Under the pieces are notes generated by a model. It saw only the letters and a program-made list of their open reading frames with translations. It ran no database searches and had not been told where the DNA came from. Shown here in pieces: positions 2,905 through 8,185 of a stretch of 41,662 nucleotides of DNA (the stretch's first letter is position 1; each line of letters opens with the position of its first letter). The DNA comes from Candidatus Shapirobacteria bacterium CG_4_10_14_0_8_um_filter_39_15 (GTDB lineage: Bacteria > Patescibacteriota > Microgenomatia > UM-FILTER-39-15): positions 1 to 41,662 of the forward strand of contig PFLE01000017.1 in assembly GCA_002784465.1 (NCBI GenBank), read 5' to 3'. The position numbers and the translations under genes are program-made.

Positions 2905-3287
2905 TAAAATTTTGTTGGTTATTATTGAGGTGATCGTTTTGGGTGGAGGATTGTTTTTGTTAAAGGGAGAATCAACATCTCCAGTAGTACCGAAAACTGA
3001 TGACGTAATGAAAAAGGTTGAGGAAACCAATAAACTGGTTGAGAAAAAAGTTCCCACTGGCTTGAAGTCCTGCACAACCGAAATTCTTGCCAACTCCGGA
3101 AACTGCACCACGTTACCCAAAGAATATGTTTGACCATACGGTTTATGGGAATGGTAAAGAGGCCGATCACGGCTTGACTTATAATAATACCTGTTCTTAT
3201 TGTCAATTCTTTGGCAAGGAGGGCGTGATGGAAATTGTCGATACCGAAGTTACGGCTTTGGGTTATAAAGAGGGAGAATGTGATTAA
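2894..3287 (+). pseudogene. Kazal-like exported protein, split by a frameshift
   Basis: Frame one (2894-3133) starts at GTG behind a strong AAAGGGGGT. It encodes a signal or anchor helix (ILLVIIEVIVLGGGLFLL), a Lys/Glu linker and two cysteines (LKSC, SGNC). Frame two, one base further on and open to 3287, gives HTVYGNGKEADHGLTYNNTC and SYCQFF then YKEGEC. Together the pattern C...C...VxG...TYNNxCxxC...GEC resembles a Kazal-type protease-inhibitor domain. The shift falls near CCCAAAGAA (3116-3124). The usual third cysteine (PVCG) is Tyr here. It could be a decayed gene, a +1 recoding site or a sequencing indel. Extracytoplasmic location is inferred. Confidence 0.5.
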
Positions 3288-4376: not shown

Positions 4377-4514
4377 ATGAACATAGAAGATTATTTAGAT
4401 CGAATGGTAATTAAGAAAACCAATTTTAGAAAAGGGGAAGATTTTGAAAAAGTGGTTAAAGAATTGAAGATTTTCAGATCGCCTACAAAAAAATTATTTA
4501 GGAAGCCAAGATAA
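4377..4514 (+). CDS. Possible small basic protein, 45 residues
   Basis: A short frame from ATG 4377 to TAA 4514 encodes MNIEDYLDRMVIKKTNFRKG and a Lys/Arg-rich remainder ending LFRKPR. The alternating charge and lack of hydrophobic stretches look protein-like. No Shine-Dalgarno or family is recognisable. It is the last frame before the boundary of the inserted segment at 4678. Confidence 0.3.
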   Translation: MNIEDYLDRMVIKKTNFRKGEDFEKVVKELKIFRSPTKKLFRKPR

Positions 4515-4533
4515 TTCCCGACGTGTCAACCTA

Positions 4534-4552
4534 TTCCACATCCGATGTGGAA
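4534..4552. promoter_or_regulatory. 19-bp perfect palindrome, operator-like
   Basis: TTCCACATC-C-GATGTGGAA is a perfect 9-bp inverted repeat with a one-base centre, in a 160-base gene-free stretch. It lacks a T-run, so it is not an intrinsic terminator; an operator or a repeat remnant is possible. The regulator is unknown. Confidence 0.35.
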
Positions 4553-4677
4553 AGTGTTCTGTCTCTAGTATCCGATACGATATTAATCTCATGAGATGCG
4601 ATTTTCTAACGGTTTTACCGGAATGCGAACCTAATCCATTCCCGGAATGTCTGATTGGAATATCTGATTTTATTGAA

Positions 4678-4716
4678 TTTGTTTTTTAATATAATCCTGA
4701 ATTTCGGACCAATTAT
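4678..4716. repeat. 39-bp direct repeat, left copy (lytR 3' end)
   Basis: These 39 bases equal 7171-7209 exactly. On the minus strand they encode the last codons of the LytR-type protein (NWSEIQDYIKKQ) and are followed by Ile-Gln and a TAA at 4670-4672. This copy therefore looks like the displaced original 3' end of that gene. It abuts the stop codon of the ATPase gene at 4716. Confidence 0.9.
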
Positions 4717-5849
4717 TATAAAATAAATTCCTGATAATTATTTCTTGAGATAAGATTAACTTTAGTTTGATAGGCTTTCCAAAAAGCCTTGGGGGTGTGC
4801 GTTCTCGGTTTTTTCCATTTAAATTCATAAGCAGAGATTTTTCCACCAGCGGTTTCAAGCCAGTCTATTTCAGCCTGATCATAAGTCCGCCAGAAATAAT
4901 ATTGTTTAAGTTGTTTTTGGTACTCGTGTTTCTTTATCCGTTCTACTGCCAAAAAATTTTCCCATAATTGACCGGTATCTATTCTTTGATCAAGAGGCAA
5001 AAACTGATCTATTAAAGCATTGCGAATTCCCAAATCCCAAAAATAATACTTTTTACTCTTATTGATTTCCTTTCTCAAATTTTTAGAAAAAGCAGTTAAT
5101 TCAAAAATGATAAAACTTTGTTTGAGTAAAGATAAATAACGCCTGACGGTTTTAACATCAATGTTTAAATTAGTGGCGAGTTCATTTTGAGAAACCTCCT
5201 GGCCGATTTGAAAAGCCAAAAGAGTCGTAAGTTTTCTAAGGTTTTCTGGTAAGGCAACATCTTTTAACTCCAAAACATCCATAAAAAGATAATCTTGAAT
5301 TAGTGATTTTAAATATTCCTGTTTTTCTGTTGGTTGAGTTAATTGTAGAAGATAGGGATAGCTACCAAAACGTAGTTGATCTTCTATCAAGGCTGATTTC
5401 TGGTGCGGTTGTAATTTGGATGAGAGTTCTTTTAAAGAAAGAGGGAACAGTCGATAAATGGTTGTTCTGCCGGTGAGCGGTTCTTGCAGGCCCCTAGAGA
5501 GAAGTAGAGAAGACGAACCACTGACATAAAAAACTTTTTTGGGAAACTGATCAATCAATATTTTCAAAGAAAGACCAATATTAGGAATTCGTTGGGCTTC
5601 ATCAACAACAATATATTTATATTTATCTACCAGTTTCGATAAATGGACTTGTGAAGTATTGCTTAATGCTTCTTGGGTTTCTCTGGTGTCTCCATTAAAC
5701 CAGACCAGATTACGGGAAAGAATTTTTTCCGTTAATTGTTTCAAAAGCACGGTTTTACCAACCCGTCTAGGTCCATAAATCAAATTAATAAACCCATTCT
5801 TCTGATTTTTTCTGATCGTTTTTACTAGAATTCTTGGAATCATATCCAT
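4716..5849 (-). CDS. AAA-family ATPase with DUF4143 C-terminus (copy 2)
   Basis: This 377-residue paralogue of the protein at 1595-2731 has Walker A GPRRVGKTV at residues 26-34, Walker B IVVDEAQ, sensor-like SGSSSLL, and a winged-helix-like segment (NELATNLNIDVKTVRRYLSLL). Its C-terminal DUF4143 part contains QAEIDWL and YEFKWKK, resembling a PD-(D/E)XK core. ATG 5849 gives MDMIPRIL; the -10 box only 3 bases upstream makes the second ATG (5843) the likelier real start. Its stop touches the left 39-bp repeat. It is divergent from the radical SAM gene, which may be its functional partner. Cellular role unknown. Confidence 0.88.
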   Translation of the reverse strand: MDMIPRILVKTIRKNQKNGFINLIYGPRRVGKTVLLKQLTEKILSRNLVWFNGDTRETQEALSNTSQVHLSKLVDKYKYIVVDEAQRIPNIGLSLKILIDQFPKKVFYVSGSSSLLLSRGLQEPLTGRTTIYRLFPLSLKELSSKLQPHQKSALIEDQLRFGSYPYLLQLTQPTEKQEYLKSLIQDYLFMDVLELKDVALPENLRKLTTLLAFQIGQEVSQNELATNLNIDVKTVRRYLSLLKQSFIIFELTAFSKNLRKEINKSKKYYFWDLGIRNALIDQFLPLDQRIDTGQLWENFLAVERIKKHEYQKQLKQYYFWRTYDQAEIDWLETAGGKISAYEFKWKKPRTHTPKAFWKAYQTKVNLISRNNYQEFIL

Positions 5850-5852
5850 AAA

Positions 5853-5881
5853 ATAATACTAAATTTACGGACTCTTGTCAA
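5853..5881 (-). promoter_or_regulatory. Promoter of ATPase copy 2
   Basis: On the minus strand TTGACA (5881-5876), exactly 17 bases, then TATTAT (5858-5853). Transcription should begin near 5846, just after the first ATG (5849) and just before the second (5843). A near-leaderless message starting translation at 5843 fits best. Confidence 0.65.
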
Positions 5882-5995
5882 GAGATAAAATATCGGATAG
5901 GTGACATATTTGACTTGTCCGATACGATTTTTTGATCGATGCTTATTGCTATTTTTCGCTTCTTCTGGCAGTATCTTTAATGAAGATATTTATTT

Positions 5996-7114
5996 ATGAA
6001 GAAATCAATAAAAAAAGGTACGCTCTGGGGAAAACAAGTCCAGATTTTTATCACTGATATCTGTAATCTTAATTGTGACGGTTGTCCTTATCCTTTTATC
6101 CCTAAAGAAAAATACACAACCATGCGTCAGCAGGAATTAAATCCCCGTGAATGGAAAAAAATTACTGATTATCTCTACGAGCAAGGAATAAGGTTGTTTT
6201 GCTTAATTGGCGGTGAGCCTGCTTCTTACAGCGGACTTGATAAAGTAATTGAGAAGATCACAGATCATCCTGACGCTTTTGCTTTACTCTCCACAAGCGG
6301 AATCCACCCATTACACGATTTGATCTTAAGAAAAAAATTAGCCCAAATTTTGTCCAGACCTCGATCCAATAAATTTAAAAATGGAGTTGCTATTAGCTTT
6401 GACGCAATTCCGGCCTTACCAGGACCTAAGAATTCTAGAGAATTAAAGGCAAAACAAGGATTAGATTTTATCAAATGTTTACAAGAGGAATATGGAGATA
6501 AAATTACCTATACCGCTAACGTTATGGTTAATCCTGGTAATATCAATAGTGTTTTGGCGATCCAAACATTTCTTGAAAAAAGAGGTATTTTTACCAATAT
6601 TTGTACACAACAAATGAAATGTTTTAATCGAATCCCTGTTTTTGACCAGACACATTTATCTCAATTAACCAAAGCAGCTCTAGAATTGATAAAACGCAAG
6701 ATTAACAGAGGAATGGTCGTCAATTCGGCAATTTATTTAAGCCAATTACCCGGAATTGTTGGTCTAGAAAATTATCAATGCTGGAAAGAACCCCAAGGTT
6801 CACCGGTTCTTGATTTTGCTCCCAACGGCAATCTCCGATATTGCAATTGGATTGGTCAGGATGGACCAGACGGAACTCCATCGGTTGACATTTCTAAACA
6901 GATAAAAGATAACCTGGTTTTGGGTTCTGAAATCTGGGAACAATCAAAAAAAATAACCAAGCAATTATGTCAGGGTTGCAGTTGGAGTAGAAGAGATAGA
7001 AATATCGAACCAATAGCGGAATTTAATCATGAAATTTTTAATAATGAGTTTTTTCAACTCGATCCGACTCTTTTTAAACTGCAAAATATTTGGGTTCAAG
7101 CCCAACATTCTTGA
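5996..7114 (+). CDS. Radical SAM protein with SPASM/twitch-like C-terminus
   Basis: This 372-residue protein carries the radical SAM 4Fe-4S motif C23-x3-C27-x2-C30 (CNLNCDGC), followed by a LIGGEPASYS SAM-contact strand. Cysteines in the C-terminal third (QCWKEP, LRYCNWIG, LCQGCSW) resemble an auxiliary-cluster SPASM/twitch domain, seen in enzymes that modify peptides or other macromolecules. No precursor-peptide gene is evident next to it, so the substrate is unknown. It starts at ATG 5996 without a Shine-Dalgarno. It is divergent from the AAA-DUF4143 ATPase, and both lie inside the 39-bp repeats, which suggests a cargo unit. Confidence 0.85.
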   Translation: MKKSIKKGTLWGKQVQIFITDICNLNCDGCPYPFIPKEKYTTMRQQELNPREWKKITDYLYEQGIRLFCLIGGEPASYSGLDKVIEKITDHPDAFALLSTSGIHPLHDLILRKKLAQILSRPRSNKFKNGVAISFDAIPALPGPKNSRELKAKQGLDFIKCLQEEYGDKITYTANVMVNPGNINSVLAIQTFLEKRGIFTNICTQQMKCFNRIPVFDQTHLSQLTKAALELIKRKINRGMVVNSAIYLSQLPGIVGLENYQCWKEPQGSPVLDFAPNGNLRYCNWIGQDGPDGTPSVDISKQIKDNLVLGSEIWEQSKKITKQLCQGCSWSRRDRNIEPIAEFNHEIFNNEFFQLDPTLFKLQNIWVQAQHS

Positions 7115-7121
7115 TGTAGTC

Positions 7122-7160
7122 TCGCAAGGGGACGTCCTGACGGGGGTGAACGCCTTGCGA
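7122..7160. repeat. Hairpin after the radical SAM gene
   Basis: TCGCAAGG (7122-7129) pairs with CCTTGCGA (7153-7160) around a GC-rich loop holding the palindrome GGACGTCC. It lies between two convergent genes and may end transcription, but has no T-run. GC content is higher than in the flanks, as in the other short hairpin repeats of this window. Confidence 0.5.
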
Positions 7161-7162
7161 AG

Positions 7163-8185
7163 CTAATTTATTTGTTTTTTAATATAATCCTGAATTTCGG
7201 ACCAATTATCGTTTCCTGATTTAGGAAGCAGTATATATTGGTGATCAGCACTGGTTGATTCTTTTAAAACATTGGTAATCGAAAGCCTGACCTGGGAAAT
7301 TTGATAATCTTTGGGGTTGATAATTAAATTGGCAATTGCCACGGCGGTTTGTTTATCCAAATCGGTTCTCACCAAGCGGATAAATTTATCAAAGAAAGCG
7401 GGAGCCTTCTTCAAGCCGTCTAAAGAGAGCAATTTATTTTTAATGCCGATTAAAACCGCCTGTTGTCTTAAAGTCCGAGCGAAATCATTGCCGTCCTGAT
7501 TCGAGTGCCGCGAGCGGACAAATTTCAAAACCGTTTCACCGGTCATTTTGTTTGGGCCGGCATCAAAATGGAGGTGTTCATACCGGCAGGAATATTGTTT
7601 TTCCAGCTGAAAACCGGACATCGTGGCATTAATTGCCGCCAGCTGGTCATTGCTCATTCCGCAGGTTTCCAGTTCCTTGCCGGCAACCGGATAAAAATAA
7701 TCATCAAAAGTTTTCAGGACATTAACTTCAATCCCGCCCAAACCGTTAATTATCTGGGTAAGGCCGTTAAAGTCAACCAAAATTGTTTTTGAGACAGACA
7801 GACCGGTAATGGTGCTAATAGTTTGCTCAACTAACGGAAAGCCGCCGGAGACATAAACCTTATTGATCTTTTGGGAGGAAACCCAAAGATCGCGGGGGAT
7901 AGAGATAAGGGCAACCTTTTTATTGGGAATATCAAGATGGATAATTATCATAGAATCTGTTAAACCAACGCCTTCATGGCCTGGGTTCCCGGTACCAAGC
8001 AGGAGGAGGTTGAAAACATTTTCTGCGGCCGTGGGAATCGGTTGGAGATTAAAATTACTTTTTTGAGTTTGATCAACCGCCGGATTGGTTAAAGTTGCCG
8101 GTTTGGACCGGAAAGAGAGAACAAGGAAAATAAAAGCCGCCAAAACCAAAAGAATTATACCGCCAAGCAGATCAACTCTTTTCAT
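7163..8185 (-). CDS. LytR-CpsA-Psr family protein
   Basis: Residues ~5-25 form one membrane anchor; the rest is the extracytoplasmic LCP domain. Family signatures are LLLLGTGNPG, LTDSMIIIHLD, ISIPRDLWV, GGIEVNV and LKFVRSRHS, with the arginines and aspartates that bind a polyprenyl-pyrophosphate substrate in this family. LCP proteins transfer undecaprenyl-linked glycans to peptidoglycan or surface proteins. Its length, 340 residues, is normal. The start is leaderless, 7 bases after TATAAT. Its last 13 codons lie in the 39-bp repeat copied at 4678-4716, so the 3' end may have been supplied by the inserted segment. Confidence 0.9.
   Translation of the reverse strand: MKRVDLLGGIILLVLAAFIFLVLSFRSKPATLTNPAVDQTQKSNFNLQPIPTAAENVFNLLLLGTGNPGHEGVGLTDSMIIIHLDIPNKKVALISIPRDLWVSSQKINKVYVSGGFPLVEQTISTITGLSVSKTILVDFNGLTQIINGLGGIEVNVLKTFDDYFYPVAGKELETCGMSNDQLAAINATMSGFQLEKQYSCRYEHLHFDAGPNKMTGETVLKFVRSRHSNQDGNDFARTLRQQAVLIGIKNKLLSLDGLKKAPAFFDKFIRLVRTDLDKQTAVAIANLIINPKDYQISQVRLSITNVLKESTSADHQYILLPKSGNDNWSEIQDYIKKQIN
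7171..7209. repeat. 39-bp direct repeat, right copy
   Basis: Identical to 4678-4716 and part of the intact LytR-type gene (codons for NWSEIQDYIKKQ). The two copies diverge immediately outside the 39 bases, which defines the edges of the proposed insertion. Confidence 0.9.

Follow-up and report, generated by a model that had tools for sequence, protein, structure and literature searches.

How did a 2.5-kb segment carrying two genes, and no recombinase, come to be enclosed between two copies of the end of a third gene? The question is raised by contig PFLE01000017.1 of Candidatus Shapirobacteria bacterium CG_4_10_14_0_8_um_filter_39_15 (assembly GCA_002784465.1), whose whole stretch of 41,662 nucleotides is called the window in what follows. 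The third gene is a member of the LytR family (here lytR), and the segment holds genes for an AAA_14-DUF4143 ATPase and a radical SAM protein. The recurrence of this layout around relatives of the ATPase, at core genes such as those of FtsH, EF-P, RpoD and MutM, suggests that genes of this family move together with a substitute tail for the target gene and need no integrase in the moving unit. We put at roughly 60% the probability that the segment belongs to a recurring type of cargo cassette without a recombinase, which arrived with its own lytR tail, recombined at the shared 3′ end and left the old tail behind. The features concerned are as follows.

4677–4716, minus strand: the displaced lytR tail (40 bp), which forms the left edge of the insertion and reads on in frame to a stop of its own at 4670–4672
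4716–5849, minus strand: AAA_14-DUF4143 ATPase, 377 aa, PADLOC PDC-S01, with Walker motifs and E297, E327/D329 and E342/K344
5850–5995, no strand: divergent intergenic region with the start regions of the ATPase and radical SAM genes
5996–7114, plus strand: radical SAM protein, 372 aa, with a CNLNCDGC motif (PF04055, E=5e-10)
7115–7162, no strand: right edge of the insertion, the intergenic stretch between the radical SAM gene and lytR, with the inverted repeat TCGCAAGG...CCTTGCGA (read from the sequence)
7163–8185, minus strand: intact LytR_cpsA_psr-family target gene, 340 aa (PF03816, E=6e-31), ending in NWSEIQDYIKKQIN and a stop codon
7170–7209, minus strand: the gene tail (40 bp) in its attached copy, which is in frame and stops 7 bases short of the stop codon's last base

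The exact direct repeat measures 40 bp (4677–4716 and 7170–7209), one base more than the 39 given in a preliminary description of this DNA, which had rightly recognised the repeat itself, and it equals the last 13–14 codons of the LytR-family gene. The longest exact repeats in 30 Markov-shuffled windows were 15–18 bp, and no third copy is present in the host genome (815 kb, 97%-complete). That the right copy is the end of an intact LytR-type gene was borne out by its in-frame position in the LytR_cpsA_psr gene. The left copy, on the same strand, reads NWSEIQDYIKKQIQ followed by a stop codon and shares the last base of the ATPase stop codon (4716–4718); reading of the sequence found neither a LytR gene before it nor LytR homology upstream of its 40 bp, in agreement with the earlier view that it is C-terminal coding sequence with its own stop and no gene attached. 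The segment is thus flanked by direct repeats consisting of the target gene's 3′ end, as in an integrative element, and encodes no recombinase or integrase, again as first described: its interior holds the ATPase and radical SAM genes only. The form of the tail is borne out by the nearest LytR relative found, at 50% identity, which likewise ends in MPKAGENDWSKFQEFIKKEL / ENDWSKFQEFIKKEL and a stop codon and has no second copy downstream.

The same layout was found elsewhere by a scan for genes whose C-terminal codons recur downstream together with a stop codon. Most of the loci were selected for holding DUF4143, and two of them (L128 and L166) were left out as ambiguous. Two displaced copies of an RpoD tail enclose VapBC and an ATPase, two displaced copies of the tail of a HepT-like gene accompany two ATPases, and displaced tails of FtsH, EF-P, an ABC-2 permease, L15 and FPG/MutM were also found, as were tails of DnaK, EF-Ts and a pyridine nucleotide-disulphide oxidoreductase with non-ATPase cargo. 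In genome G065 an ATPase, a staphylococcal-nuclease homologue and AbiEii are inserted between rplO and secY in a ribosomal-protein operon, with a displaced L15 tail (L168 1-3703, G065:C19), and at the EF-P locus (L189 7558-9998, G141:C42) the last 13 EF-P codons, recoded, form the in-frame C-terminus of the neighbouring ATPase. This independent recurrence makes an assembly error at 4678–4716 unlikely. Each repeat is specific to its own target gene, with no shared core, and at the listed loci of this survey no gene between the tails was recognised as a recombinase. At most sites the similarity of the tails stops at the stop codon, and the displaced tails are often recoded synonymously: in seven tail pairs 49 of the 76 differences fall on third codon positions (p=3e-8), a bias which indicates that the copies diverged as working gene ends and not as decayed duplicates. 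At a further locus (L201 13955-17227, G129:C14) a thioredoxin-reductase-like displaced tail lies beyond a BrnT/BrnA-like pair, with no ATPase between the tails.

Which of the two tails is the newcomer can be told where related genomes retain the empty site. In genus g58, an MFS gene directly follows mutM in seven genomes (G158, G109, G207, G059, G330, G200 and G318). In G301 the same space holds two DUF4143 ATPases, two other genes and three stacked tails, each closed by a stop codon: FCERCQV, which is attached to mutM, FCHHCQV in the middle and FCPHCQKSI beside the MFS gene. A stretch of 17 bp, AGGGGAACATACTTTTG, is common to the mutM tails. MutM of the congeners ends in FCPKCQK, LCPHCQKAV and similar; since these ends match the type that lies beside the MFS gene, that tail is the old one and the tail attached to mutM is the newcomer. 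When MutM was compared along its length, the g58 congeners proved too divergent to place the donor boundary. A small antitoxin/toxin-like pair occupies the same mutM place in G283. The ftsH site of genus g51 is empty in G067 and G190, where ftsH lies directly against a convergent gene, whereas it is occupied in G264, by an ATPase with a displaced FtsH tail, and in G114; G251 and G051 carry a DUF559 gene there.

A third case lies outside the phylum. On plasmid pDSM110093_a of Sulfitobacter sp. DSM 110093 (L316 2238-4496), scpB is followed by a DUF4143 ATPase and then by a 55-codon scpB tail of another type, and on plasmid b of S. indolifex the corresponding parts of scpB adjoin without a gap at 3015/3016, which is the empty site. 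As the Sulfitobacter plasmid is complete, a metagenome assembly artefact is excluded for scpB. Two scpB tail types occur on Roseobacter plasmids; the ATPase accompanies one and the other is displaced. Fic or other genes occupy the scpB place on related plasmids. The proposal of a small recombinase-less island at the lytR 3′ end, marked by a displaced tail, is thereby strengthened through the same layout and the empty sites at mutM and scpB for relatives of the ATPase; the functional pairing of ATPase and radical SAM enzyme that went with it is not.

The association of such repeats with DUF4143 genes was measured with a flanking repeat score. In a first set of loci a score of at least 25 was reached at 8/58 DUF4143 genes and 7/537 other open reading frames (ORFs), and in a second, separate set a score of at least 16 at 12/70 and 10/557, respectively (p=4e-7). 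With both sets combined and a slightly wider flank, 27 of 126 DUF4143 genes of the class (21%) scored at least 16 as compared to 27 of 1071 other ORFs (2.5%; p=5e-14), and 14/126 as compared to 10/1071 other ORFs scored at least 25. Toxin-antitoxin-like genes lie in between (4/40), and the high-scoring control ORFs include AbiEii genes and Y1 transposases within pairs of REP (repetitive extragenic palindromic) repeats. In 383 kb of the window's genome, scanned regardless of DUF4143, no convincing displaced tail was found. Viral contigs gave nothing in a single-protein search; a profile search gave 44 loci, with flanking repeats at one of them. No repeat was seen on Thermus plasmids, nor was a tRNA found at an Agrobacterium plasmid locus that had been considered as a tRNA-end target. 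Apart from these counts, AbiEii and two DUF4143 ATPases form an array in L181 8079-11356 (G312:C1), with one 22-45-bp repeat copied between them.

The ATPase is usually the sole gene between the tails at the recurring loci, or a gene that they have in common. From its sequence, that of the window is a candidate phage-defence gene, PDC-S01: it matches the PADLOC PDC-S01 model over its full length (residues 3-376 of 377, E=3e-135). The preliminary description had spoken of an ATPase with a nuclease-like C-terminus, and AAA_14 and DUF4143 domains with intact PD-(D/E)XK catalytic residues (E297, E327/D329, E342/K344) were indeed found. Across 138 homologs the Walker motifs and the nuclease residues are conserved, the latter being kept in 87-99%. 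The predicted structure has a pLDDT of 92, and over the whole protein a fold search gave weak or partial matches to clamp-loader, ORC and STAND-type (Apaf-1, NLR) ATPases only. A sequence search of the PDB found no relative with the single protein, and general AAA matches only with a profile. The host genome has 11 DUF4143 genes, and at E<=1e-25 such a gene is present in 123 of 374 genomes of the class, the others having none at that level. One more AAA_14-DUF4143 (PDC-S01) gene lies in the window itself at 1595–2731, 2 kb from the displaced tail; it is 43% identical to the first and has no detectable flanking tails. In the available excerpts of PMC12988326, PDC-S01, with ATPase and PD-(D/E)XK domains, is the fourth most common defence system across prokaryotes; the same excerpts tie it to defence by association only, with validation pending for most such candidates.

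The radical SAM protein weakly resembles MoaA and prokaryotic viperins. Its relatives comprise one weak match (30%) in the 374 class genomes and one marginal match in about 85,000 species genomes, a rarity that rules it out as a conserved partner of the ATPase, and the gene is read as a passenger. The idea that the two genes form a functional unit is not supported: the pairing is not conserved, and the ATPase recurs alone or with other genes. Of the suggested defence or modification unit, the ATPase remains, as a match to a candidate system.

How might the present arrangement have come about? The history and polarity of the lytR case would be those of the other sites. DNA carrying the ATPase-nuclease gene, the passenger radical SAM gene and its own version of the lytR tail would enter the cell and recombine inside a short stretch common to lytR 3′ ends. 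The product would be, in order, a lytR closed by the incoming tail, the cargo and the displaced original tail. The incoming tail preserves the function of the target gene, and this is what would make conserved genes usable as insertion sites. The strand exchange is most likely homology-directed, by RecA-type recombination of the imported DNA. This route is preferred since the host genome encodes a single tyrosine recombinase, which is XerC-like and lies outside the segment, for three unrelated tail targets (lytR, hepT and rpoD), and since uptake can be com-based: Patescibacteria conserve the com DNA-uptake genes, and ComEC-mediated transformation has been shown in Saccharibacteria (PMC10633639).

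The ATPase-nuclease might instead drive the insertion in the manner of a homing gene, which is possible but doubtful. Its PD-(D/E)XK domain would cut the uninterrupted native tail, and repair would copy in the cassette together with a recoded, uncuttable tail, so that AAA_14-DUF4143 (PDC-S01) genes would be a one-gene mobile class homing into gene 3′ ends without a transposase or integrase. DUF4143 genes are the cargo most closely tied to displaced tails and often stand alone between them, and the lack of a convincing displaced tail in the 383 kb chosen regardless of DUF4143 fits with this, as do the conserved nuclease residues, the stacking of insertions at a single tail and new tails that preserve the protein motif while their DNA is altered (e.g., CERCQV for CPHCQK in MutM). 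However, VapBC, AbiEii or BrnTA also occur in tail-marked insertions that enclose no ATPase, the nuclease has no known cleavage specificity, the target genes are very diverse, and the family is otherwise a candidate for defence. Still less probable is an integrative element of the classical type, with the 40 bp as attL and attR and with a tyrosine or serine recombinase that works in trans or has been lost. The layout, the repeat length and the stacking are compatible with 3′-end integration, the XerC-like protein or a helper element could act in trans, and a tyrosine recombinase gene lies two genes from the Sulfitobacter scpB locus. Yet a single such enzyme would have to serve the three unrelated targets, which have no core in common, and between the surveyed tails no recombinase was recognised, serine recombinases not having been searched for. 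An integrase in trans is thus less likely than homology-directed recombination.

Insertion with a long target duplication, a process put forward for the restriction-modification genes of Helicobacter pylori, in which the event itself duplicates the gene end, is improbable. The window copies are exact over 40 bp, and long variable direct repeats without a transposase are what the accessible parts of PMC1643837 and PMC3031569 describe. At the other sites, however, the two tails have diverged as homologs, mostly by synonymous changes, and the tail now attached to mutM or scpB is of another kind than the native tail; a duplication would not produce this. Least credible of all is a remnant of a tandem lytR duplication, to which the ATPase and radical SAM genes would be unrelated. 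LytR-family genes are often multicopy and the host genome has a second one, but it is 40% identical to the window lytR whereas the tail is 100% identical, the left 40 bp lack LytR homology upstream, and the same pattern occurs at rpoD, ftsH and EF-P.

Several points weigh against a cassette that brought its own lytR tail. About 79% of the DUF4143 genes are without a detectable repeat, through age or another route of arrival, and of 16 loci inspected on plasmids from outside the phylum, that of Sulfitobacter is the single clear case. Tail-marked insertions with other cargo (VapBC, AbiEii, BrnTA) make the ATPase not the sole traveller. The tail pairs were found in part by protein similarity, which favours synonymous differences. 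The lytR pair, identical over 40 bp, carries no recoding signal, and its polarity is taken from the other sites. Lastly, at 17-40 bp the stretches in common fall on the short side for recombination by RecA.

To the left of the displaced tail the window holds two REP-like repeats, of which R2 is the nearer and lies just beyond the tail.

4613–4656, no strand: R2; elsewhere in the genome, two R2 copies enclose a Y1 (RAYT-like) transposase gene
4513–4556, no strand: R1, a pair of which flanks another Y1 (RAYT-like) transposase gene

Each family pairs around its own Y1 gene (G000:C7:7148-7920; G000:C19:75572-76359), with single copies scattered, and both have the structure X-(G/C)AA(G/C)CTA-X'-X. 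A REP/RAYT origin of the 40-bp repeat was considered and rejected, as both R1 and R2 are confined to the left side and displaced tails elsewhere are gene-specific. Further away, near-identical direct repeats (62 and 47 bp, 98%) at 315–407 and 1320–1436, about 1 kb apart, hold REP-like hairpins of another family and flank an ORF of 232 aa (509–1207) with no Pfam match.

PDC-S01 is among the commonest candidate defence genes. Insertions of this kind can be recognised by the displaced gene tail, a simple mark that can be searched for and that names the target, orders successive events and gives a testable prediction on integrase-free mobility. If the proposed cassette route is true, it would explain how defence and toxin-antitoxin genes are gained at conserved genes, which stay unbroken, in such compact genomes.

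Among known systems, the integrative elements and cis-mobilizable islands that occupy gene 3′ ends are similar in having cargo between two 3′-end copies, a tail that preserves the gene, and stacking; they differ from the present kind of unit, which is without a recombinase and has one or two cargo genes and many unrelated targets. The minimal mobile elements of Neisseria consist of variable cargo between conserved genes of naturally transformable hosts, have no mobility genes and are exchanged by homologous recombination. They thus share variable cargo at conserved genes without mobility genes, whereas here the mark of insertion is a displaced tail and a single ATPase family predominates in the cargo. 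PMC3082526 is one paper on the Neisseria elements. An integron gene cassette was rejected, as the repeats are target-specific with no shared attC and the single tyrosine recombinase lies elsewhere. Long target duplication in H. pylori (Nobusato et al. 2000, as cited in the accessible parts of PMC1643837 and PMC3031569) likewise involves selfish or defence genes, long variable direct repeats and no transposase, but here the repeat is a gene tail and several sites have diverged homologs of different origin. The available excerpts on PDC-S01 (PMC12988326) do not mention a tail-marked layout, and no earlier description of the pattern in Patescibacteria was found in the open-licence literature. Homology-facilitated illegitimate recombination (PMC3240628) would yield just such a donor tail with a leftover recipient tail; in contrast to it, the recurrent stacking and the one prevalent cargo family seen here suggest a more regular process.

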